From a virus: a stretch of 33,013 nucleotides of DNA. How positions within the stretch are numbered: position 1 is the stretch's first letter; the number at the start of each line of letters is the position of its first letter. The notes under the pieces are model-generated. The model had not been told where the DNA came from. It did no database searches and saw nothing but the letters and a program-made list of their open reading frames with translations. Below are positions 1 to 13,172 of the stretch, piece after piece. The position numbers and the translations under genes are program-made. The DNA is taken from IMG/VR virus record IMGVR_UViG_3300042865_000822, positions 1 to 33,013 of that record; one strand, 5' to 3'.

Positions 1-929
1 TTTTTAATCGGTGCAAGCGATACATCAAACCATCTGTCATTAGATGCGTAAGTGGTTACAGGTTTTGTCCAAATTCTATTATAGAAAGGTAAGGTATCAG
101 AAACATATTCTTCTTCTTTAAATTTCATTAAAAATTCTACATGTTCGGGACTAACCATTCTATAGTTGTCTGTAAAAATTTCTTCATAACGAGCCCAAAC
201 AGTTTCTTCAGGTTTAATAGGTCTTTGCTTTTGTTCTCCCGTTTCTCTATTTATTTCAGTGACACTACCTCTAATATCAAAACCACAAAGATACATACTG
301 AACTTATCGTTATATTGTTTTAATTTATTAATAGTTCCATCTAATAATTTTAAGTCATGTAAATGCGAAGAACCCCCTAACCAACCAAACCTTAATTTTT
401 CTGACGGTAATGTCTCCGATTGAAACTGCGGTTCGTTTGGATTTATTGCGTTTGGTAAAACAAAAACATTTTTATTAAGTTTTGATATCTCTGTTGCAAA
501 AATAGATGTAGTTGTTGTTACATAACCCGCAACTTTTAGGTTTTTCATAATTTTTTCATGTAACTTGTTTTGAACAACTAATTGATGTACAGGATGTTCT
601 TTTGTTGGTAACCAATAATCATCTAAATCCATAATAGTTACGATCCCTAAATTATTAAGATTTTGAATTATTGAAGGGGCGGCATCATAGTTCTGACCAA
701 TACTTCTATGAAAATGGACAATATCGTATTGTCTCCAATAATTTATATCGTTTATTTTTGGGTCGTAGTCTATATCTACGTGAAAATCGTCTCCGTGATT
801 ATTTTGTAACATTACGTGGGGATCCACACTCCTAAATTTACCTTAACCAACTCCGGTACGATCGCTAGGGAGTACTAACACCCTAATTTTTCTGCGAACG
901 TCCGGAGTATATTTACTCTCTTGTGTCAT
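1..929 (-). CDS. GT-B glycosyltransferase, 3' end outside window, interrupted by an in-frame TAA
   Basis: Reading leftward from ATG 927-929, the frame is open to base 1 except for one TAA at 843-845. The first 28 codons give a typical GT-B first strand and glycine loop (RVLVLPSDRTGVG). After the stop the same frame continues the same domain (KFRSVDPH, then MDLDDYWLPTKEHP and LRFGWLGGSSHLHDL), so one Rossmann domain is split at its first loop. GT4-like enzymes move a sugar from a nucleotide-sugar donor; in phages they act on DNA bases, host surface glycans or virion proteins, and the acceptor cannot be told here. The acidic catalytic part lies beyond the left edge. The ATG overlaps the homing endonuclease stop by 17 nt, so translation is probably coupled. 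It may be a recoded gene, a pseudogene, or a gene that restarts at GTG 825-827 or ATG 810-812. Confidence 0.75.
840..848 (-). other. In-frame stop between two identical glycine codons (GGT TAA GGT)
   Basis: On the minus strand, codons 28-30 of the glycosyltransferase read GGT TAA GGT and are followed by AAA TTT AGG. Removing six bases (GGT TAA or TAA GGT) restores an uninterrupted GT-B loop. Thirteen bases past the stop, 829-814 can fold into a 4-bp GC-rich stem plus two G-U pairs with a 4-nt loop. A stop between matched codons is the minimal layout of a ribosomal hop, but a plain nonsense insertion looks the same. Confidence 0.6.
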
Positions 930-1830
930 ATTTTTTTATAATTTGATTTATAAGTTTTGGATTTTTTTTAAGTTGTGACTCCCAAACTACTTCCAAATTA
1001 TAACCATTTCTTATTATTAAGTCAACCTTGTTCCTGTCATTATCCCATAATTCTTGTGCTGTTTTTTGTTTTACTTGGTGAAAATAATCACTACTGTATT
1101 TTTCAGGATTACAATGCCAATAATCACCATTATATTCAATAACTAAATTTAATTTTGGTATGTATATGTCACATATTTTTGTATCAATTTTTAATGAATG
1201 TTTTACATCATAACCTATTTTTTTAATTTCTATTATTATTTCTTTTTCTTTTTTTGATCTTACGACTGATTTTATTTTACCCAGTCTTCTTGTTTTTTTC
1301 ATAGTTTCAGAAAATATTTTTCTCACATGTTCCATTTTACCCCCTTCCCATTTTTTTCTAATCATATTTGCAATCCTTTCCCTGTTCTCTTTTTTTGACA
1401 TATAATTATTTTCACCCACACCCTTACCTTTTCTACTTTTAGAAATTTGTTTTTTAGTCTTACTTGAATGTTTTTTACCATAAAATGGATTACCTTCACC
1501 AATTTGTAATTCTAATGAGCATTTTTTACAAGGGTTGTTTTTGTTTAACTTATTGAAGTGGTTCCTACATGCAATTACTTTATCTTTTGATTTTGTTAAA
1601 ATTATTTGATTACAATTTGGGCATAACCTTTCCACCGTGTAGAATTTACCGTCTTGGTTAATAACCAAACTATCACACCTATCTCGTTTTCTTGTTACAT
1701 TATGTTTTTTAAGTATTTTCAAAATAACCGGTTTAGAAACACCAAACTCTGACGACAAAACTAAAGAACTCTTACCATTAAGGTATTCTTTTAAAACTTT
1801 TTTTTCGTTTAAAATTATTTTACTACCCAT
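913..1830 (-). CDS. Homing endonuclease, NUMOD3 plus EDxHD/Vsr-like nuclease
   Basis: 305 aa. Residues 8-47 look like a helix-turn-helix. Cysteines 70, 73, 88, 101 and 104 suggest a zinc knuckle. Residues 111-136 (GEGNPFYGKKHSSKTKKQIS and on) are a NUMOD3-type DNA-binding module. Residues 190-290 match the Vsr/PD-(D/E)xK-like EDxHD nuclease: E195/E197, D221 (CDIYIP), IEYNGDYWHCNP with H239, and D263/D265 (WDNDRNK), ending GYNLEVVWE. Such enzymes make a site-specific break in an allele lacking the gene and spread by recombination; no intron or intein surrounds it, so it is free-standing. It sits after the terminator at 1875-1904, has its own TATTTAT motif 6 nt before the ATG, and its last codons overlap the glycosyltransferase start. 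Confidence 0.85.
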   Translation of the reverse strand: MGSKIILNEKKVLKEYLNGKSSLVLSSEFGVSKPVILKILKKHNVTRKRDRCDSLVINQDGKFYTVERLCPNCNQIILTKSKDKVIACRNHFNKLNKNNPCKKCSLELQIGEGNPFYGKKHSSKTKKQISKSRKGKGVGENNYMSKKENRERIANMIRKKWEGGKMEHVRKIFSETMKKTRRLGKIKSVVRSKKEKEIIIEIKKIGYDVKHSLKIDTKICDIYIPKLNLVIEYNGDYWHCNPEKYSSDYFHQVKQKTAQELWDNDRNKVDLIIRNGYNLEVVWESQLKKNPKLINQIIKKYDTRE

Positions 1831-1843: not shown

Positions 1844-1874
1844 GTCCTGTTCTATCAAAAGGAAATATTACTAT

Positions 1875-1904
1875 AAAAAAAATCCACCCTTGTGAGGTGG
1901 ATTT
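1875..1904 (-). terminator. Rho-independent terminator of the 4417-1922 operon
   Basis: On the minus strand the 9-bp stem AAATCCACC/GGTGGATTT (1904-1896 with 1888-1880), with a 7-nt loop, is followed by a run of eight T on that strand. It lies 18 nt past the stop of the last operon gene. Confidence 0.85.
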
Positions 1905-1921
1905 AACAGACGATACGAAAC

Positions 1922-3681: not shown

Positions 3682-4417
3682 CTTTTAACAATCTTATAAG
3701 TTCCATTTTTGAAACACCTAATTTGTCTGCCATATTTTTTAATGCATTTATGTTTCTTAATAAAATTGGATTAGTTTTTTTATCCTTAGTTGATATTTCA
3801 TTATTTGATGAATTTTTTTTAAATAAAGTGTCTTCCGTTATTTCATCATCAAGCTCTTTTAATATCAACCTGTCTATAAAATTTTTTTTCTTTTTTATAT
3901 TTTTTGGTACCCTTTTGTGTAGATTAGGTTTTTTTCCTTGTTGTACTGCCCTATCAACCGCATCTTCTTTGTCTAAACCTAATTTTTTTTCATAATGTTT
4001 AACCGTATCTTTAAAATCCATAAACATAGTATCTTCAAAACCAAACGCTCCTTCCATATCTTCTTCTGCAAGTTTACCCTCACCATAGTAACCATACCAA
4101 CCTCTAAGTAATGGGTCTCTTGGGTTTCTACTCATAGGAACTATTTTATCGGTAAATACGGAACCATCAATAGATGATTGTGGGTCTAATATTGGTATGT
4201 CAGACGTTAGCCATGTACCATCATCACCGACTAACTCAGTGACTTCAGTTTCTTTTCCCTCTACTTCTTTTTTTGTTTTTTCCTTAAAGGTTTTCATATC
4301 TTTACAAGGCATGTATTTTCTATCACCATCTTCATTATGATAATGGGATCCGACACACCCTAAAGATTTTGAAACTCTCTCCGCTCTCTCCTTTGTTGAA
4401 TATTTATATGTTTTCAT
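3674..4417 (-). CDS. Hypothetical phage protein with N-terminal Cys/His cluster
   Basis: 247 aa, first gene of the leftward operon. Residues 9-40 carry an ordered Cys/His set, C21-x3-H25-x-H27-x10-C38 (GCVGSHYHNEDGDRKYMPC), which could bind one zinc. A middle segment (GWYGYYGEGKLAEEDMEGAF) is aromatic and acidic, followed by a basic helix (PNLHKRVPKNIKKKKNFIDR) and a C-terminal helical unit (LKNMADKLGVSKMELIRLLK) that resembles a small HTH-like three-helix element. It has a TATTTAT motif 14 nt before the ATG and is divergent from the fibre gene at 4469. I do not recognise the family; the Cys/His cluster argues for a folded N-terminal domain rather than chance. Confidence 0.65.
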   Translation of the reverse strand: MKTYKYSTKERAERVSKSLGCVGSHYHNEDGDRKYMPCKDMKTFKEKTKKEVEGKETEVTELVGDDGTWLTSDIPILDPQSSIDGSVFTDKIVPMSRNPRDPLLRGWYGYYGEGKLAEEDMEGAFGFEDTMFMDFKDTVKHYEKKLGLDKEDAVDRAVQQGKKPNLHKRVPKNIKKKKNFIDRLILKELDDEITEDTLFKKNSSNNEISTKDKKTNPILLRNINALKNMADKLGVSKMELIRLLKDE

Positions 4418-4431
4418 CTAGGCTTTTACCT

Positions 4432-4438
4432 ATAAATA
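4432..4438 (-). promoter_or_regulatory. TATTTAT motif, leftward operon
   Basis: On the minus strand, TATTTAT lies 14 nt before ATG 4417. It is one half of a divergent pair in the 51-bp gap between 4417 and 4469. Confidence 0.6.
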
Positions 4439-4450
4439 CCGCGATTAAAC

Positions 4451-4457
4451 TATTTAT
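4451..4457 (+). promoter_or_regulatory. TATTTAT motif, rightward fibre block
   Basis: TATTTAT followed by an A-rich leader, 11 nt before ATG 4469. Its partner on the other strand is 12 bp away, so each direction has its own copy. Confidence 0.6.
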
Positions 4458-4468
4458 CATAAAAAAGA

Positions 4469-6397
4469 ATGCCAAGTCAAAACATTAATTCTTATTATTA
4501 CCCAAAATACACCACAAAACTGAATTATAGGGAGTATTTTGATTTAACATTAGCATCAGATGAAGGAAGTTATGATGAAGAAGTTGTGTTTTCCACAGAC
4601 ATTATCGGTTTGAATGATGGAAACCGATTACCAATTTATATTGATTTAAATAATACAGGCACAACCATACAACCAACGTTAAATTATGGTGACTACATTT
4701 CTGGAAACACATTTGTTTCAAAAAACTTTTATAACCCAAAAAATTTAGACTACAGTTGTTATACCGCATATACAGGAATTTGTGATGTTGGTCTTGTTGC
4801 TACCGATAATGGGTTGTTTACAAAAATGTCAGGAGAAACTTTATATTATATTAAAGGTGTTGATGATACCTACAAGTTTCACCCACATTACAGGGATAGT
4901 AGGTTTAAAATGCACCCTGTAAGAAGTATTGTTGAATTACCAAACGTAAAATTTTCAGGAAGACCAAAAGATACCGTATATAATATTGTATCAAAAAGCG
5001 CAAGTACCGTTGGTTACTATCAAGAATTATATGGTGGGTTTTATCAAGGGTTTTATAAATTAAACGGGTATGATTATGAGGTATTTCCCGAAAGGGTAAA
5101 TAAAGGTTGGTCTGTCGAAATGATGTTAAAACCAAGAACATTTGAAGAGTATTCTTTAAACCCTATCACAGAACAATATTTAAATGATATATACCCATCA
5201 AACGCAGGTACCTTCTTTTATTTTGGTACAAGAGCGGAGAATAAGTATTATCATAACGCTAGTGGATCCCCTCAATCGGATTCGGGGTACACTAGAGTAA
5301 CGGAAGAGTTAACATGCATCGAGTCGTGTGCGTGTTCAGATACCGGAGTAACAAACGCTAACTGTATTCACGTTTACCCTAACAGTCAATTTACTACAAC
5401 ACACAATATAGGATGTAATTGTGGTTGTGTGGGTACAGAAATTGTACCACTACCAGAAACCGATCCAAAATATGATGTCTTGTCAAGTGCAATATCTTTA
5501 AGGTTTGATGGTTGTCCCGAAAACCCGAGTATTGCTGTAAAATATTTAAAAATTACAGGAGATTGTGTAACCACAGGAAGTTGCGAAACAACAGGAGTGA
5601 CTTTCCAAACAGGGTACACAATGACCGAAGTAATATCACAACCAATATATGATTTATGTGGATTTAATTGTGAAGACACTACAGAAGAAAGGTGGGTTAT
5701 GATTAGTGCGGTATTTGAAAGGTATCGATATTTAGAAGATTGTGACTTAGGAAATTTAGGGGGACTTAATGATTTAAGGGTCGTTACAACTCAATCATCG
5801 ATAGATGGTCAGTCATATAAGTTAATTAGTCCACCTGAAACACATTCGGGATCAACCGCAGAACCAAAAGTATATAAGATTGGGTTTAATAAAAAATGGT
5901 TTGATGAATTAGATTATAGGTTAGGAACATTAAAACTCTACGTAAACGGATATTTGTTTTTAGTAATTGAAGATTTTGAAGAAATAATTCCAAGAGAATT
6001 AAATACAGAAAAAGAAAAACAAGTTGGCGTTCCTTTTAATATTTCGTTCGGTGGGGGTACTCAAGGATTACATGACCACTTAATTTTTTCGGGATGCTCA
6101 AATCCATATGGACCTTACACGCAAGATCCCGAATTGTTCCCAAATAACATTTTATCTGCAACAACTTTATCAGGACTATCAACAAACATTTTATTAGAAC
6201 AAAATTTTGGAGGTACTTTTATGGGTGGAATATCTCAATTTAGGATGTACGTTGAACCTTTAAGTTCTCCACAAATACAGCATAACTTTAGAACACTAAA
6301 AGATAAATTTAATTTACTTAATTTTTGGTGCCCTAATTGTCTTTGTACCAACGAGTATATTGATGGAGATTACATTGAGTGTGGGTATTTTGAATAA
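4469..6397 (+). CDS. Cys-rich virion/tail-fibre protein with LamG-like fold
   Basis: 642 aa. The middle and C-terminal parts show concanavalin-A/LamG-type features: GWSVEMMLKPR before the first sheet, LGTLKLYVNGYLFLVIEDFE, VPFNISFGGGTQG, and the closing FMGGISQFRMYVEPLSSPQI. These folds bind glycans or form fibre collars. There are more than 20 cysteines, concentrated in residues about 284-325 (CIESCACSDTG, then GCNCGCVG) and at the C-terminus (WCPNCLCTNEYIDGDYIEC). That is unusual for a cytoplasm-assembled virion protein. The gene starts the fibre block and has its own TATTTAT motif. It is probably a baseplate-proximal fibre or adhesin; the exact role is inferred from position. Confidence 0.7.
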   Translation: MPSQNINSYYYPKYTTKLNYREYFDLTLASDEGSYDEEVVFSTDIIGLNDGNRLPIYIDLNNTGTTIQPTLNYGDYISGNTFVSKNFYNPKNLDYSCYTAYTGICDVGLVATDNGLFTKMSGETLYYIKGVDDTYKFHPHYRDSRFKMHPVRSIVELPNVKFSGRPKDTVYNIVSKSASTVGYYQELYGGFYQGFYKLNGYDYEVFPERVNKGWSVEMMLKPRTFEEYSLNPITEQYLNDIYPSNAGTFFYFGTRAENKYYHNASGSPQSDSGYTRVTEELTCIESCACSDTGVTNANCIHVYPNSQFTTTHNIGCNCGCVGTEIVPLPETDPKYDVLSSAISLRFDGCPENPSIAVKYLKITGDCVTTGSCETTGVTFQTGYTMTEVISQPIYDLCGFNCEDTTEERWVMISAVFERYRYLEDCDLGNLGGLNDLRVVTTQSSIDGQSYKLISPPETHSGSTAEPKVYKIGFNKKWFDELDYRLGTLKLYVNGYLFLVIEDFEEIIPRELNTEKEKQVGVPFNISFGGGTQGLHDHLIFSGCSNPYGPYTQDPELFPNNILSATTLSGLSTNILLEQNFGGTFMGGISQFRMYVEPLSSPQIQHNFRTLKDKFNLLNFWCPNCLCTNEYIDGDYIECGYFE

Positions 6398-6421: not shown

Positions 6422-8602
6422 ATGAGTTTAGTTACAAGACAATATGGGCCAGACGCTAAGGGGTCAAAATTAACCAATTTAGATATGGATAATAATTTAT
6501 ATTATCTACAATCTTTAGGTGTGTCTGGAATGACTTTTTCCGCAAATACTCTTACACTCACAAACCCTACCGGTGGTATAATTGCAAATGCTTTGATTGA
6601 TATTAATGCTGACAGTAGGTGGTATATACCTTCAGGAAGTACTGTTGAAATTGGTTCATATTCACAAAGTTTTGTGTATGGTGATTTATATGTTTTAGGT
6701 GAATTGATATTAAATGACAATTCTCAATTAATAATATTAAATGGTAATTTAATTTTAAGTGGTGGAACTATCACTGTTAGTGGTTCAGGACAAACCGTTT
6801 TGGTTGATTTGCCAACATTTGGCGATTTAATTACTTCAGGGACATACTCTGGAGGGACATTAACATTATCTACAAGTAACGGCACTGATGTAACAGTCAA
6901 TGGTTTTTTTACCGGAAGTACTGACGTTTTTACAACAGGTGCATCTTACAATAATGGTATTATTTATTTTGATACTAACGTATCACCTTCAGCATATACT
7001 GTTAATATTAGTTCATTAACTGGAGGCTCAAATACGTTTTTAACAGGAGTTACCTATGATAATTTAACAAATACAATAACTTTAACAGATAACACAAATA
7101 CCACTTTTAATGCGTATATTGATTCGGTTAGTGGTTTAACTGTAAATGGTAGTTTAAGCGCAACAACACTTTACGGTGATGGTTCTAATTTAACAGGAAT
7201 CCCAACACAAGATACCTTTGTAACTGGCGGAACATATAGTAATGGGTCTGCGATTTTTACCAATAATACAGGGGGGACGTTTAATGTTTCAGGGTTTTAT
7301 ACTGGATTAACGGACAACAATCAATTCACTACCGGATTTACTTACTCAAGTAATACATTTACAATATTAGATAATTCCGGTAATACATTTAACGCAACAA
7401 TAAATACGGTAACGGGTTTGACGGTAAATGGAGGTTTAAGTGCAACAACAATATCTGCGACAACTTATCAGAACTTACCATTAAGTGGTTATGGCACAGG
7501 ACTAACATTTAATACTGCTAATTATAATTTAACTATTGATGGGGGTAATGGTGTTTTAGATACTGTGAGTTTATCAGTCTTGGCTTCAGATTTAACGGTT
7601 ACGGGAGGAACCTATAACCCAAATACAGGTATTGCTGTTTTTACTAATAATACGGGGGGTACTTTTAATGTGACAGGATTTTTAACAGGGCTTACAGACA
7701 CATATGTGAGTGGATCAACATATAGTAATAACACATTTACGTTTACAAATACAAGCGGGGGTAGTTTTAATGTTAATTTTAACACCGTAACAGGATTAAC
7801 ATCCACAGGTACAATCTCATCAAACACAATATCAGCAACAACATATCAAAATTTACCTACAGATGTTAGAGTAACTGGCGGTACATATTCTGCAGGAACC
7901 ACAACATTTACAAATAATACGGGTGGTACGTTTTCTATTACAGGATTCAGTACTGGTTATACTTATAGTCAAACAAATAATTATACGTCAGGAATTCCTG
8001 TTTCAATAACACACAATTTTGGTACAACTGAAGTATTAGTACAAATTATAGATACAAATACTAATCAACAAATTTTTGGAAATATTAGTAACTATCAGTT
8101 AAATTCATTTGATGTTACATTAAATAGTTCTTTAAATGGTATTAAAGTTGTTGTTGCTGGAGGTTCTTTGACATCCACCACACCAAGAGGTTCGATAACA
8201 TTACTCTTCGGTCATGATAGCGTCAGTCCTTCAGATAGTGTCTCATATTTTATTGGGGGTCAATTTAATTTAGCCCCTCTTACCTCTACAAATGACGGTA
8301 GAAGGTTAATAACACAAAAAACAGGTAATATCACACAAGTCTCTATATCAAGAACAATTGGAGGTACTTTAGGGTCTTCTGAATTAAATACTCTTTCAAT
8401 AAATAACGTAACTCAAGCAACCACAAGAATCATAACAAGCGCCGCGACTTTTGATTCGTCAAGCTCATTAATTAACTATACATTAACATCACCATTACCT
8501 GTTGTTGCTGGTGATAAATTAGAAATTGAGTGGGATACTCCTTCATATGCAACAAACCCAACAACAGTAAGACAACAAATAAACGTATTAATAGATTTTT
8601 AA
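6422..8602 (+). CDS. Repeat-rich tail fibre, receptor-binding candidate
   Basis: 726 aa. The N-terminal ~130 residues (MSLVTRQYGPDAKGSKLTNL, then a beta-rich IIANALIDINADSRWYIPSG region) probably attach it to the particle. About eight diverged repeats follow, of the form TGGTYS-x-G-x3-FTNNTGGTFNV-x-GF-x-TG, interrupted by 'YGDGSNLTGI' and 'ISATTYQNLP' modules. The C-terminal 180 residues change character: VSITHNFGTTEVLVQIIDT, then a jelly-roll-like tip (SLTSTTPRGSITLLFGHD to INVLIDF). Repeats of this kind form trimeric beta-fibres that end in a receptor-binding head. Composition is Thr/Gly/Asn-rich and almost free of Cys and Met. It is followed with no gap by a 54-aa gene. Confidence 0.85.
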   Translation: MSLVTRQYGPDAKGSKLTNLDMDNNLYYLQSLGVSGMTFSANTLTLTNPTGGIIANALIDINADSRWYIPSGSTVEIGSYSQSFVYGDLYVLGELILNDNSQLIILNGNLILSGGTITVSGSGQTVLVDLPTFGDLITSGTYSGGTLTLSTSNGTDVTVNGFFTGSTDVFTTGASYNNGIIYFDTNVSPSAYTVNISSLTGGSNTFLTGVTYDNLTNTITLTDNTNTTFNAYIDSVSGLTVNGSLSATTLYGDGSNLTGIPTQDTFVTGGTYSNGSAIFTNNTGGTFNVSGFYTGLTDNNQFTTGFTYSSNTFTILDNSGNTFNATINTVTGLTVNGGLSATTISATTYQNLPLSGYGTGLTFNTANYNLTIDGGNGVLDTVSLSVLASDLTVTGGTYNPNTGIAVFTNNTGGTFNVTGFLTGLTDTYVSGSTYSNNTFTFTNTSGGSFNVNFNTVTGLTSTGTISSNTISATTYQNLPTDVRVTGGTYSAGTTTFTNNTGGTFSITGFSTGYTYSQTNNYTSGIPVSITHNFGTTEVLVQIIDTNTNQQIFGNISNYQLNSFDVTLNSSLNGIKVVVAGGSLTSTTPRGSITLLFGHDSVSPSDSVSYFIGGQFNLAPLTSTNDGRRLITQKTGNITQVSISRTIGGTLGSSELNTLSINNVTQATTRIITSAATFDSSSSLINYTLTSPLPVVAGDKLEIEWDTPSYATNPTTVRQQINVLIDF
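7175..7194 (+). repeat. YGDGSNLTGI module, DNA copy 1
   Basis: GGTGATGGTTCTAATTTAAC, identical to 9364-9383 in the next fibre gene. Encodes part of the common fibre motif YGDGSNLTGI. Confidence 0.8.
7457..7479 (+). repeat. SATTYQNLP module, copy 1
   Basis: Diverged 23-nt copy of the module also found at 7835, 9475 and 10893. Encodes ATTYQNLP. Confidence 0.7.
7835..7857 (+). repeat. SATTYQNLP module, copy 2
   Basis: 23 nt identical to the copy at 10893-10915 and one base different from 9475-9497. Precedes the last fibre repeat and tip of this protein. Confidence 0.8.
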
Positions 8603-8767
8603 ATGGGTTACTTAGGTACATATGAAATAGTAAATTATAGTATTAATCATCCTGTAGAAGGAACTATCAATAAACAAAAAATTATTTATTATAATAATCA
8701 AAATGAAATTGAACTTGAAGAGTATTATTTTGGTTTTATAAGAGAGGGATATACGATTAAAAATTAA
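8603..8767 (+). CDS. Small protein between fibre genes, 54 aa
   Basis: ATG 8603 follows the fibre stop codon with no gap, and the frame runs 54 codons to TAA 8765-8767, 5 nt before the next fibre gene. The protein starts MGYLGTYEIVNYSINHPVEG and ends YYFGFIREGYTIKN. It is short, aromatic and acidic, with no Cys. The length, tight packing on both sides and normal codon use support a real gene. It resembles no family I can name; small proteins between fibre genes are often fibre chaperones or capping pieces, which is inference here. Confidence 0.6.
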   Translation: MGYLGTYEIVNYSINHPVEGTINKQKIIYYNNQNEIELEEYYFGFIREGYTIKN

Positions 8768-8772
8768 TTATT

Positions 8773-9855
8773 ATGACAAATTTTTACGATTCTTTAGGAA
8801 TAAACGGTGGACTAAATATAAGTGCGAACACAACAACAGACGCCATATATATTAGTCAATTAGGTACGGGAAATGCGGTATTAATTGAGGATAGTTCAAA
8901 CCCCGACTCGACCCCATTTATTATAAATTCAGGGGGTAGTGTTAATATTGGTAGGATTGAATATTTGACAACTTCAGGTGGCACTCAGGCAAAACTACAA
9001 GTTAATAATAGTACATCACAAATACCTTCATCAGGGTTACCGTTCACTACTAATTTTATAGTACAAGGATTTAATAATAATAATGTAGGACTTTTTACTA
9101 CCGATACTAACACCTCACAAATTTATTTTGGAACACCCTCAAGTGTTTATGGAGCAAAAATGTCTTGGTATTACACTGGAGGTACTTTTGATATATCAAC
9201 AGAAACAACAGGAGGTACTTTGACTTTTGGAACCGACGTTGGGTTTGAAAGAATGAGAATTCAAAGTGACGGTAAGATTGGTATTGGTACAACCGCAGCA
9301 ACGGCAAATTTAGAAGTTGCCGGCTCAATCTCAGCAACAACAATTAGTGGAGTTACGTTTTATGGTGATGGTTCTAATTTAACCGGTATTAGTGGAGGGG
9401 GTGGGTCTTTTTCAGGAGGAACAGTAACTAACCCAACTAATTTCACAGGTGGTTTATCGGCAAACACATTTAGTGCAACAACATATCAAAACTTACCTAC
9501 AGTTATACAAGTTTCTTGTTCTGATGAAATAACCGCATTAATTACTGGAACAACAACAACTTTTAGAATGCCATATAACATGTTAATTACTGAAGTTAGA
9601 GGCTCATTAACAACCGCACAAACAAGTGGTAATACATTTACGGTTGATATTTTAAGAACTGGAACAACAATATTATCAACATTAATAACCATAAATAGTA
9701 ATCAAAAAACATCAAAGGCAATAGGAACAACACAACCTGTAATATCAACACCAAATTTGGTTGATGATGACGAAATGAGTGTAAAAATAACACAAATTGG
9801 TAGCGGAACCGCAAGAGGTTTAAAAGTCGCAATAATAGGGAATAGAACAAGTTAA
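8773..9855 (+). CDS. Tail fibre with jelly-roll receptor-binding head
   Basis: 360 aa. The first ~190 residues carry typical phage fibre text: GNAVLIEDSSNPDSTPFIIN and ERMRIQSDGKIGIGTT, followed by VTFYGDGSNLTGI and FSATTYQNLP linkers. The last ~115 residues form a separate head: VSCSDEITALITGTTTTFRM, then ITEVRGSLTTAQTSGNTFTV, then a strand pair ending LKVAIIGN. Heads of this type cap many phage fibres and bind the host surface. No S74 autoprotease chaperone follows the GIGTT motif, although the two often occur together. It shares short DNA modules with the fibre genes on either side, which suggests head exchange by recombination. Confidence 0.85.
   Translation: MTNFYDSLGINGGLNISANTTTDAIYISQLGTGNAVLIEDSSNPDSTPFIINSGGSVNIGRIEYLTTSGGTQAKLQVNNSTSQIPSSGLPFTTNFIVQGFNNNNVGLFTTDTNTSQIYFGTPSSVYGAKMSWYYTGGTFDISTETTGGTLTFGTDVGFERMRIQSDGKIGIGTTAATANLEVAGSISATTISGVTFYGDGSNLTGISGGGGSFSGGTVTNPTNFTGGLSANTFSATTYQNLPTVIQVSCSDEITALITGTTTTFRMPYNMLITEVRGSLTTAQTSGNTFTVDILRTGTTILSTLITINSNQKTSKAIGTTQPVISTPNLVDDDEMSVKITQIGSGTARGLKVAIIGNRTS
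9364..9383 (+). repeat. YGDGSNLTGI module, DNA copy 2
   Basis: 20-nt exact match to 7175-7194 in the upstream fibre gene. Confidence 0.8.
9475..9497 (+). repeat. SATTYQNLP module, copy 3
   Basis: One base different from copies 2 and 4. It lies directly before the receptor-binding head of this fibre. Confidence 0.8.
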
Positions 9856-9858
9856 GAC

Positions 9859-10584
9859 ATGAGTTTTATAGTTAATCCAAACACATTTAATTATTCAATA
9901 ACACAATCAGGTTTAGTTTTTAACTTAGACGCAAAAAACATTAATTCATTTCCCGGTACAGGAACTACTTGGTTTGATTTATCAAAAAATTCGGAAATCA
10001 ATAATGCCACTTCTACTCAAACAACAGGTGGTGGAAATGCGAGCGGACCACCAATTTATAATAAAGGAGTTCTTGATTTTAATAAAACCACAAGTAGACA
10101 AATGGTTGTTTCAAACAATCCCTCAACAAGACTTACAACCGCAACCGTTGGTGTTTGGGTAAAGGTTAATTCGTCGTCAAGTGGGTTTGCCGGTATAGTT
10201 ACTAAACGAGACGCTTGGGGAATTTTTACAAATAATAATGAATTGGTTTTTTATAGTTGGGGTGGCTCAGGATCACTTACATCTACAGGTGTTGATTTAT
10301 TAGATAATCAATGGAGATATTTAACTTTAGCTTTTAGTGGTGCCACTGGTTCACCATCAAATAATGCCACTATGTATATAAATGGTGTTCCACACACAAC
10401 CGGAACTATTTTGGTTTTAGATAATACCGTTTGGTGGACGGCAATTGCTTGGGGATCTTGTTGTTTTGGATCTGAACAGTTTTTAAATGGGTCAATAGGT
10501 GAAGTACATATGTATAATAGAAGATTAACTGATGATGAAATATTATATAATTTTAATGCCGTTAAATGGTGGTACGGACTATAA
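9859..10584 (+). CDS. LamG/concanavalin-A-like lectin adhesin
   Basis: 241 aa, essentially a single LamG_3-type (Laminin_G_3-like) domain. It opens with GLVFNLDAKN followed by PGTGTTWFDLSKN, has the central strands ATVGVWVKVNSSSSGFAGIV and NQWRYLTLAFSGA, the MYINGVPHTTGT hairpin, and the family's C-terminal signature GSIGEVHMYNRRLTDDEILY-NFNA. These domains bind carbohydrates; in phages they decorate fibres and assist adsorption. The start is 3 nt past the previous stop, so it is co-transcribed with the fibre. The ATG context has no Shine-Dalgarno sequence. A 68-bp AT-rich gap follows, containing the 16-bp palindrome ATTTTATTAATAAAAT (10600-10615), perhaps a weak transcript end. Confidence 0.88.
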   Translation: MSFIVNPNTFNYSITQSGLVFNLDAKNINSFPGTGTTWFDLSKNSEINNATSTQTTGGGNASGPPIYNKGVLDFNKTTSRQMVVSNNPSTRLTTATVGVWVKVNSSSSGFAGIVTKRDAWGIFTNNNELVFYSWGGSGSLTSTGVDLLDNQWRYLTLAFSGATGSPSNNATMYINGVPHTTGTILVLDNTVWWTAIAWGSCCFGSEQFLNGSIGEVHMYNRRLTDDEILYNFNAVKWWYGL

Positions 10585-10632
10585 AAATTAATTAATTTAA
10601 TTTTATTAATAAAATAAATAAAAAAGTAAAGA

Positions 10633-10639
10633 TATTTAT
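10633..10639 (+). promoter_or_regulatory. TATTTAT motif before nonapeptide-repeat gene
   Basis: TATTTAT then A-rich DNA, 13 nt before ATG 10653. Confidence 0.6.
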
Positions 10640-10652
10640 AAATTAAAAAGAC

Positions 10653-13172
10653 ATGGGAAGAATAATACAACAAAATAATGGTAAGACCACAATCTACGTT
10701 ACGGGCGAAGATTTCAATAATTTAAGTGGGACGACTGACACTTATTACGTTGGTGTTGACCTAAATAGTGGTTTGTTTGAAAAGAAAAATCCAGATGGGT
10801 CATTTGAAGATTTTAGTGGCGGATCTTTTACGGGAGGTACCGTTACTGGATCAACTACATTTACCAACGGTTTAACTGCAAATACAATATCTGCAACAAC
10901 ATATCAAAATTTACCGTGTAATGTAGAATATATTACTTATTCTGAATTAGCAGGTAAAATAACAGGAGCAACACTATGTGAAGGAAAATATTACTTGATG
11001 ACTGATTATCAAACGTGTTATGATCAACCAAACTTTGATTCTAATGGTTCGGCAATAACAACGGGTAACTATAAAACAGGAACAACAGAACCAATATTAT
11101 TGCTAGCAATATCAACAACAGGATTTTCACCTACAGTATACTCGACATTATACCCACAAGATAAAATATCTTATGATATAACTTGGGATACAACAGAAGT
11201 GACAAGTGGTCCTGCCAAAGGTAGAATTACAGAAAGAATTGATGATAAAAATAATAGAGCCGATTATGATTTTAGAGCAGTTCAATTTATTAGATATGTT
11301 GGTTATTTTTCAGAACAATACTATGAAGGTAAAATTAATTTAGATGGTACAACCGGATTAGTTGATGGAACTGGAACAACATTTACAAATGATTTTACTG
11401 TTGGTGATATTTTTGGAGTTTATAGTCCTGGTTTCGGATTAGGTAGTTTCCAATATTATGAAATTTCATCGATAGTTAGTAATGTTGAAATGTATGTTAC
11501 AGGTAGAACTTTAACGAATGCGACCAACTCCTATTATTCTTCGGGACAGAGATTACCTGATTATATGAATCCACACCAATGTAATATAACTGGTACAACT
11601 AATGATGAATTTGCGGAGTATTATACATTTAATGATGATGATAATTTTAACACATACTTGGGTGATTATGTTAATTACAATACTTTTATATTGTCCAATA
11701 ATGTTTTTCTCGACGGTTCATACAGAAATAACACATTCGGTGGGAATGTTGTGGGTAATACATTCAATGAAGATATGATCTCAAATATAGTTGGGCCATA
11801 TTTTCAATATAATATTATAACAAATGATTTTGACAGAAATATTGTAGGTTCAAATTTCGAATATAACATTATTGATTGTGATATGGATTCAAATCAGATT
11901 GGTAATTATTTCGAATTTAATATGCTCGGAGATTACAATGGACAAGATTTTGATTATAACCGAATAGGTTCAAACTTCAATAGTAATTTTTTAACGCTTA
12001 ATTATGATTTTCAAAATAATAATATTGGAGATAGTTTTTATAGTAACATCATAGATAGTGACTTCCGAAACAATACTATTGTTGGTAACTTTAATCTAAA
12101 CCTATTAATTAATAACTACTTCAATGACAATATTGTAGGTAGTGATTTTCAATATAATACCATACCAACCTCTTTTTACTCAAATAATATAGGAGAGAAT
12201 TTTGATAGTAATACAATAACCCAAAATTTTTATAACAATGAAATTGGTCCCGGATTTAATAATAATTCAATAAGTGGGGAAACATATAACAATAGAATCG
12301 GTGAACGATTTGAAGAGAATACAATATATGGTGATTTTAATGATAACCAAATTTTCAACGAATTTAAAGGTAATATAACGTATGATAGTTTTTACCATAA
12401 TAGAACAGATTGGGGGTTTGGAGGAAATCAAATTAGTGGGTATTGTGGTGATAATACCTTCGGACCCATGATTGATAGTAATGACTTTTTGGGTGATGTT
12501 TACCAAAATACATTTAAAGGTGGTGTTTTGGGCAACACTATTGGTAATAATTTCGCTAATAACAATATCGGTTTTATTTTTATTAATAATATAATAGGTG
12601 AAGGTTTTGGAAACGGATATGGCGAACCACAAGGTAATACCATAGGTAATAATTTTGTTGATAATACAATAGGTGAGTATTTCTATAACAATACAATTCC
12701 TGATAATTTTGAGAACAACACTATAGGAGATTATTTTCAGTGGAACATTGTTAACACAGTTATAAATAACACTGATTTTACAACAAATTATGGAAACATA
12801 ACAGGGGTTACATATGTTGCTAATGGGACAACCGGAACTGATGCCGTTTATACTGATTTATCTGGCACTACAAATGGAATTGGTACAGGAGCAACATTTG
12901 ACGTTGAGGTTTCAGGCGGAACAGTAATTGGTGTTACAGGAGCAACGGAAGGTAGATTGTATCAAACCGGTAATACAATAACGATATTAGGGACTCAAAT
13001 AAGTGGAGCGACTCCGGCTGATGATGTTGTTATTACTGTTACAGGTATTAGTGTTAATCCATCTGTTTATGAAACTTACACTTGTCAGATTTTTGAAAGA
13101 CAAGGAGGAAACAAACGATTATCATATTACGATTCGAGTGATACACTAACAATAAAAAATATTAATGAATAA
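10653..13172 (+). CDS. Giant fibre/adhesin with nonapeptide-repeat solenoid
   Basis: 839 aa. The N-terminus (MGRIIQQNNGKTTIYVTGED) leads into a short fibre stretch and the shared ISATTYQNLP linker at about residues 80-90. Residues about 90-350 form a mixed domain (LCEGKYYLMTDYQTCYDQPN, AVQFIRYVGYF). Residues 360-697 hold about 36 tandem nine-residue repeats of the form N-x-[I/V]-[G/x]-x-x-F-x-x, ending NTIGEYFYN, NTIPDNFEN, NTIGDYFQW. The asparagine ladder and regular hydrophobic positions argue for a beta-solenoid. A C-terminal domain of ~140 residues closes it (NITGVTYVANG to LTIKNINE). It is likely a surface-exposed adhesin; no enzymatic motif is seen. Host target and partners are unknown. 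Confidence 0.8.
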   Translation: MGRIIQQNNGKTTIYVTGEDFNNLSGTTDTYYVGVDLNSGLFEKKNPDGSFEDFSGGSFTGGTVTGSTTFTNGLTANTISATTYQNLPCNVEYITYSELAGKITGATLCEGKYYLMTDYQTCYDQPNFDSNGSAITTGNYKTGTTEPILLLAISTTGFSPTVYSTLYPQDKISYDITWDTTEVTSGPAKGRITERIDDKNNRADYDFRAVQFIRYVGYFSEQYYEGKINLDGTTGLVDGTGTTFTNDFTVGDIFGVYSPGFGLGSFQYYEISSIVSNVEMYVTGRTLTNATNSYYSSGQRLPDYMNPHQCNITGTTNDEFAEYYTFNDDDNFNTYLGDYVNYNTFILSNNVFLDGSYRNNTFGGNVVGNTFNEDMISNIVGPYFQYNIITNDFDRNIVGSNFEYNIIDCDMDSNQIGNYFEFNMLGDYNGQDFDYNRIGSNFNSNFLTLNYDFQNNNIGDSFYSNIIDSDFRNNTIVGNFNLNLLINNYFNDNIVGSDFQYNTIPTSFYSNNIGENFDSNTITQNFYNNEIGPGFNNNSISGETYNNRIGERFEENTIYGDFNDNQIFNEFKGNITYDSFYHNRTDWGFGGNQISGYCGDNTFGPMIDSNDFLGDVYQNTFKGGVLGNTIGNNFANNNIGFIFINNIIGEGFGNGYGEPQGNTIGNNFVDNTIGEYFYNNTIPDNFENNTIGDYFQWNIVNTVINNTDFTTNYGNITGVTYVANGTTGTDAVYTDLSGTTNGIGTGATFDVEVSGGTVIGVTGATEGRLYQTGNTITILGTQISGATPADDVVITVTGISVNPSVYETYTCQIFERQGGNKRLSYYDSSDTLTIKNINE
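10893..10915 (+). repeat. SATTYQNLP module, copy 4
   Basis: Identical over 23 nt to 7835-7857, here in the N-terminal part of an otherwise unrelated protein. Confidence 0.8.
11730..12743 (+). repeat. Nonapeptide-coding tandem repeat, about 36 units
   Basis: Each unit starts with Asn and has Ile/Val at position 3, often Gly at 4 and Phe at 7. Nearly all units are exactly 9 residues; the few exceptions are 10, 11, 13 and 16. 'IG' units tend to alternate with non-Gly units, giving an 18-residue super-period. Codons vary widely, so the array is old and kept by selection on protein. Confidence 0.85.

Follow-up and report, generated by a model that had tools for sequence, protein, structure and literature searches.

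A putative mobile cassette of a homing endonuclease gene and a short ribosomal bypass element at the start of phage glycosyltransferase genes

The window analyzed here is the whole 33,013-nt stretch of the IMG/VR virus record IMGVR_UViG_3300042865_000822, which contains T4-like structural and replication genes: PHROG matches were obtained for tail sheath, DNA polymerase and head-tail adaptor, and the tail sheath is about 30% identical to those of cyanophages and other T4-like phages. Near one end of the window, a glycosyltransferase frame is interrupted by a stop codon between two glycine codons (Table 1). The reading of codons 28-30 as GGT TAA GGT, put forward in a preliminary description, was confirmed at 848-840 on the minus strand, and the frame and its relatives confirmed that both sides of the stop encode one GT-B glycosyltransferase. 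The homing endonuclease reported there as lying directly upstream is indeed present, and its gene overlaps the glycosyltransferase ATG (929-927, minus strand). The window frame translates as MTQESKYTPDVRRKIRVLVLPSDRTGVG, stop, and then GKFRSVDPH...; its N-terminal extension is borne by the cassette, as element-free alleles begin with MSKIKVLVLPSDRTGVG. In 17 of 17 alleles checked, the take-off codon preceding the stop is codon 26-28 counted from the outermost ATG. Pfam detected NUMOD3 above cut-off in the window endonuclease and in 18 of 18 family members, and an MTES_1575/Vsr-like nuclease domain in 15 of the 18, the window protein scoring below the curated cut-off for the latter; its PHROG match is a homing endonuclease. 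Between the upstream gene and the endonuclease gene, a GC-rich hairpin followed by a T run (1874-1910, minus strand) is terminator-like, and a similar hairpin is found just 5' of the glycosyltransferase gene in element-free relatives. Elsewhere in the window (6422-13172, plus strand), consecutive large structural ORFs have a common repeated module with SATTYQNLP and GGTFNVTGF-like motifs, which suggests shuffled tail-fiber repeats.

Table 1. Features of the interrupted glycosyltransferase locus in the window.
Feature	Coordinates	Strand	Remarks
Homing endonuclease gene	913..1830	-	305 aa; from ORF, Pfam and PHROG; 3' end overlaps the start of the glycosyltransferase frame
Glycosyltransferase frame, first part (28 codons)	846..929	-	Extension MTQESKYTPDVRRK, then beta-strand 1 and Gly loop IRVLVLPSDRTGVG
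5' stem-loop	850..908	-	About 20 bp, 59 nt; stops 1 nt short of the take-off codon; proposed motor of the hop
Take-off codon GGT (Gly28)	846..848	-	Codon 28 of the frame
In-frame stop TAA	843..845	-	Codon 29; the entire coding gap in the window allele
Landing codon GGT	840..842	-	Codon 30; earliest matching triplet past take-off in any frame
Glycosyltransferase frame, second part	3..842	-	GT-B fold; exits at the window edge; about 387 aa in relatives

Comparison of the window allele with its relatives started from 80 glycosyltransferase loci in IMG/VR, most of which read uninterrupted GVGKFRS while others share the stop. Searches with the endonuclease, with the Ser-type glycosyltransferase and with further relatives widened this set to 180 non-redundant IMG/VR junctions, consisting of 36 distinct element alleles, 141 clearly element-free alleles (129 without and 12 with an endonuclease) and three odd ones; regex false positives at RS codons (L016, L056, L058, L074 and L238) were removed. 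GGT TAA GGT recurs in the independent contigs L003, L006 and L126, and TGA takes the place of TAA in others; thus, the stop is not due to an assembly or sequencing error. The allele comparison proposed in the preliminary description gave the anticipated 6-base difference: in L001, an element-free allele with a glycosyltransferase 96% identical to that of the window, GVGKFRS is encoded with a single Gly, as in other element-free relatives, and the window allele therefore has exactly 6 extra bases. A scan for the signature over 2.45 Mb recovered 33 of the 34 distinct elements along with seven unrelated matches. No second element near another gene was found in 20 regions scanned around other endonuclease-like genes of the same phages. 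GTDB genomes yielded a single relative, which is element-free. Among named phage isolates, the glycosyltransferases obtained were all distant and the endonuclease matches were mere fragments; Rfam gave no match, including none to an intron or ribozyme.

The order of take-off codon, immediate stop, gap and landing codon was observed to be constant in all 36 element alleles. The take-off codon is GGT, GGC, AGC or AGT, encoding Gly or Ser, the following zero-frame codon is TAA or TGA (36/36), and the gap has one of eight lengths (2, 3, 4, 5, 6, 8, 9 or 10 nt). The alleles comprise 20 distinct take-off/gap/landing combinations, e.g., GGC-TGA-GGT in L086, GGC-TGAATTTAAA-GGA in L019, AGC-TGACA-AGC in L120, AGC-TGAA-AGC in L124, AGT-TG-AGC in L111 and GGT-TAACAAAAC-GGT in L369, so the elements vary in sequence rather than repeating a single string; on the tree, the stop type switched at least 8 times and the gap length changed at least 10 times. 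Take-off and landing codons have their first two bases in common in 35 of 36 alleles and all three bases in 14, the pairings being GG-GG in 28, AG-AG in seven and AG-GG in one (Fisher p 1e-6, uncorrected for phylogeny). This covariation is observed in few independent events, as only one of five take-off changes falls on strongly supported branches. Most elements in Ser recipients (GVSYFRST) have AGY on both sides, and those in Gly recipients have GGN on both sides. The landing codon is the earliest matching triplet in any frame in 34 of 36 alleles. Twelve alleles (11 combinations) have a gap that is not a multiple of three (2, 4, 5, 8 or 10 nt), and in these the matching codon is exactly where the glycosyltransferase frame picks up again. 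The remaining gaps are divisible by three (24/36, of which 22 are 3 nt long), and these could leave room for other recoding. The codon match is broken in L110 (3959-3967; AGT to GGC) and, at the third base, in L203 (2972-2982; AGC to AGA), which may be recent imperfect joins or reflect tolerance of weak pairing, and which offer natural tests of the pairing needed for landing. In the 36 elements, TGA invariably comes after take-off codons with C in third position (GGC, AGC) and TAA after most of those with T, whereas TAG never occurs; shared descent or a termination-context effect may account for this bias.

A hairpin near the stop was also part of the preliminary description, which placed it downstream (829-814). 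This structure reaches only -5 kcal/mol, the 60 nt past the landing codon fold no better than shuffled sequences (z +1.0), and the values with and without the element are -4.4 vs. -5.6 kcal/mol, so that it is not part of the feature. The actual hairpin, which had been missed, lies upstream (-28.2 kcal/mol, z -5.8 vs. shuffles). Folding energies of the 70 nt preceding the take-off codon range from -22.4 to -30.8 kcal/mol in 36/36 elements, compared with -1.7 to -15.0 kcal/mol in the 129 alleles without element or endonuclease and -2.3 to -12.7 kcal/mol in the 12 element-free alleles with endonuclease, and the hairpin is absent from all 141 element-free alleles. It comprises 18-25 bp, ends 0 nt (28 alleles) or 1 nt (8 alleles) from the take-off codon, and has its 5' arm within the N-terminal extension that element-free alleles lack. 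Covariation of the arms was observed as compensatory pairs (CTCCGG/CCGGAG, CTCCAG/CTGGAG, CCCCTG/CAGGGG and CACCCCAG/CTGGGGTG) and in the closing pair, which may be C-G, U-A, G-C, A-U or G-U. RNAalifold returned no structure for the 34 hairpins in one MAFFT alignment because the 5' arms are shifted by 1-2 nt between clades; covariation was instead assessed from three clade alignments and by alignment-free arm-swap and synonymous-codon tests. Swapping arms between alleles weakened folding from a natural mean of -27.4 to -17.7 kcal/mol, with 1.9% of swaps as strong, and all 34 distinct hairpins were extreme when compared with synonymous recodings of the same peptide (z -3.4 to -7.5). From the G-U pairs we infer that the selected form is RNA rather than DNA.

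The frame was observed to be intact from the landing codon onward in 36/36 alleles; it is full length in 35 and open to the window edge in the window allele. It encodes about 387 aa, but a long in-frame insert brings several alleles to about 770 aa. Frames of this size were seen in L106, L111, L113, L124, L223 and L229 as well as in L120, where the insert (4164-6278) looks like an intein with an endonuclease domain; a single gene can thus host homing elements of two kinds. The dN/dS ratio is 0.265 with and 0.261 without the element and, judged from these sequence comparisons, the downstream frame is under purifying selection like that of element-free genes, with the caveat that dS is near saturation for most pairs and the values are only indicative; this selection lends indirect support to a full-length protein across the gap. 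No conserved internal start follows the stop, seven alleles lack any ATG, GTG or TTG in 60 codons, and no Shine-Dalgarno-like site for such a start was found. Modeled with AlphaFold (pLDDT 92), the closest element-free homologue has the fold of a GT-B enzyme related to MshA, PglA and BshA, and the stop would fall after beta-strand 1 but before the main part of helix 1; thus, a product started downstream would be without a core strand and the Gly loop.

The element is inherited jointly with the endonuclease. An endonuclease or its remnant accompanies 29 of 36 element alleles, as opposed to 12 of 141 element-free ones. The element is distributed over the glycosyltransferase tree as expected by chance (33 changes; shuffled 33.0) but clusters on that of the endonuclease (3 changes; shuffled 7.2; 0 of 500 shuffles as low), which supports the earlier suggestion of a bypass that moves along with the endonuclease, as in the case of T4 gene 60 and mobA. 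Seven of the 36 element alleles have no endonuclease, and the element therefore outlives endonuclease loss. Conversely, two endonuclease lineages nested among the element-bearing ones are without the element, which was probably lost there, or seems to have been replaced. In L025, L096, L102, L107, L108, L109 and L306, a related endonuclease lies directly 5' of the glycosyltransferase start without hairpin, extension or stop. Near-identical gene pairs with and without the element (L124/L168, L178/L181, L369/L370, L019/L020 and window/L001) differ mainly 5' of the junction and over the initial 15-30 nt past landing, a pattern to be expected if the endonuclease drives gene conversion with little co-conversion. 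Its scattered occurrence at one fixed site, together with co-transferred flanks, fits the criterion for a free-standing homing endonuclease.

Taken together, it is very probable that the locus carries a mobile cassette in which a homing endonuclease gene and a short programmed bypass element would replace the 5' end of the target glycosyltransferase gene, although no protein, ribosome-profiling or reporter data are available. Following this, we propose that translation begins at the ATG embedded in the 3' end of the endonuclease gene and that the ribosome reads through the hairpin to GGT, which would bring the stop into the A site. The peptidyl-tRNA-Gly would then unpair, the ribosome would slide 6 nt (5-13 nt in relatives), and re-pairing would occur at the first matching codon, so that translation resumes in the glycosyltransferase frame and yields ...DRTGVG-KFRS..., the same as in element-free alleles. 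Unpairing, slide and re-pairing are inferred, as is the idea that the insertion shields the target site against cleavage. It is likewise inferred, from ribosome geometry, that with the take-off codon in the P site most of the lower stem would be open in the mRNA channel and could close only if the ribosome advances. The small gap may dispense with a take-off stem-loop, a long nascent-peptide anchor and a landing stem-loop. The six-base hop of peptidyl-tRNA-Gly envisaged in the preliminary description thus remains, in the absence of a translation experiment, the best-supported explanation after comparison of 180 junctions; its length, however, holds for the window only, since gaps of 2-10 nt occur in the family and often change the frame.

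Other ways of expressing the gene were weighed against this hop. Readthrough of the stop, or a frameshift by +1/-1, with the hairpin as stimulator and GVG-X-GKFRS as product, is compatible with the 22 of 36 alleles in which a 3-nt gap leaves both parts in frame and joinable by readthrough alone, but the 12 alleles with gaps of 2, 4, 5, 8 and 10 nt have the same hairpin and stop and cannot be joined in this way. Moreover, no one direction of frameshifting fits all alleles, the matching second codon is left unexplained, and the hairpin lies 5' of the stop, whereas readthrough stimulators are normally found 3' of it; we regard this explanation as very unlikely. Removal of the gap from the RNA, by splicing-like excision or repeat-guided slippage, would give an identical product, and a strong RNA hairpin does abut the gap. 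However, Rfam gave no match to an intron or ribozyme, the gaps (2-10 nt, with only 2-3 matching bases) are too short for known splicing or slippage, and the constant stop after the take-off codon is left unexplained; we regard this, or a cause not thought of, as quite improbable.

Scarcely credible is the production of two proteins, a 28-residue peptide ending at the stop and a remainder translated from an internal start or after re-initiation, the two perhaps assembling into a split enzyme. Split genes adjoining homing endonucleases are known (T4 39/60, Aeh1 nrdA; PMC2988022), and the window allele has a GTG 5 and an ATG 10 codons past the landing codon, but no start position is conserved across alleles, seven of which are startless in 60 codons, no Shine-Dalgarno-like site is present, the piece lost would comprise the first beta-strand and Gly loop of the GT-B enzyme, and codon match and hairpin position would have no explanation. 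Equally hard to sustain is a dead scar or switch, in which the enzyme is no longer made and the insertion only shields the carrier DNA from its own endonuclease. The insertion at the presumed target site and the very strong association with the endonuclease would fit, but every downstream frame is intact, purifying selection equals that of element-free genes, the matching codon rescues the frame exactly at eight gap lengths, compensatory change maintains the hairpin, the element persists after loss of the endonuclease, and several alleles keep the long in-frame insert, including the intein of L120. The related suggestion that the stop was left by endonuclease-driven repair does not hold either: in 36/36 alleles it is a conserved part of the element and not a one-off scar.

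The programmed hop would provide, besides introns and inteins, a third route by which a homing endonuclease can occupy a conserved coding site without killing the gene. The alleles form a natural series of 20 combinations, eight gap lengths and two amino acids, with and without endonuclease and with near-identical element-free controls, which opens to test the minimal bypass signal, the choice of landing codon and whether a hairpin reforming behind the ribosome suffices. It is likely that these alleles constitute the first family of short programmed ribosome hops found in nature, carried by a mobile endonuclease cassette. Its minimal signal would be an upstream hairpin abutting a Gly/Ser codon that is followed by a stop and, within 2-10 nt, by the nearest matching codon; such a cassette would join its target in any frame, making bypassing a frame-independent alternative to introns and inteins. 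An earlier description of such elements was not found in the searchable open literature, subscription papers being outside the search.

Efficient programmed bypassing in phage appeared unique to T4 gene 60 (PMC3014915), and no natural in-frame stop hopping was known according to a 2016 review (PMC5009743). Bypassing in synthetic stop-hops of Escherichia coli concerns laboratory constructs, whereas the phage site is natural and has a hairpin. In the mitochondria of Magnusiomyces capitatus, short inserts termed byps are skipped by the ribosome at many places and their matches may be imperfect (PMC5009743). The phage element resembles byps in its short, putatively skipped insert and possibly imperfect match; contrarily, byps are described as independent of mRNA context and reflect relaxed mitochondrial decoding, while the phage element always has a covarying hairpin and a stop. 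With T4 gene 60, in which refolding of the 5' stem-loop is thought to pull the mRNA back through the ribosome (PMC5009743, PMC11194080), it has in common the matched codons (35/36), the stop directly 3' of take-off (36/36) and the 5' stem-loop (36/36). The gap, however, is 50 nt in T4 and 2-10 nt here, the take-off stem-loop in the gap and the 3' stem-loop of T4 are missing, a longer hairpin directly adjoins the take-off codon, and Gly or Ser codons are used in a widespread family as compared to one phage. The KKYK nascent-peptide signal is absent from the 22 residues before take-off in 34 distinct alleles and from the full 28-residue N-terminus of the window. Furthermore, the mobA/gene 60 cassette combines an HNH endonuclease with a topoisomerase target, in contrast to the NUMOD3/MTES_1575 type and glycosyltransferase found here. 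Our verdict is that the element probably works like T4 gene 60 without belonging to it by descent, given the differences in endonuclease family, target, gap structure and peptide signal.
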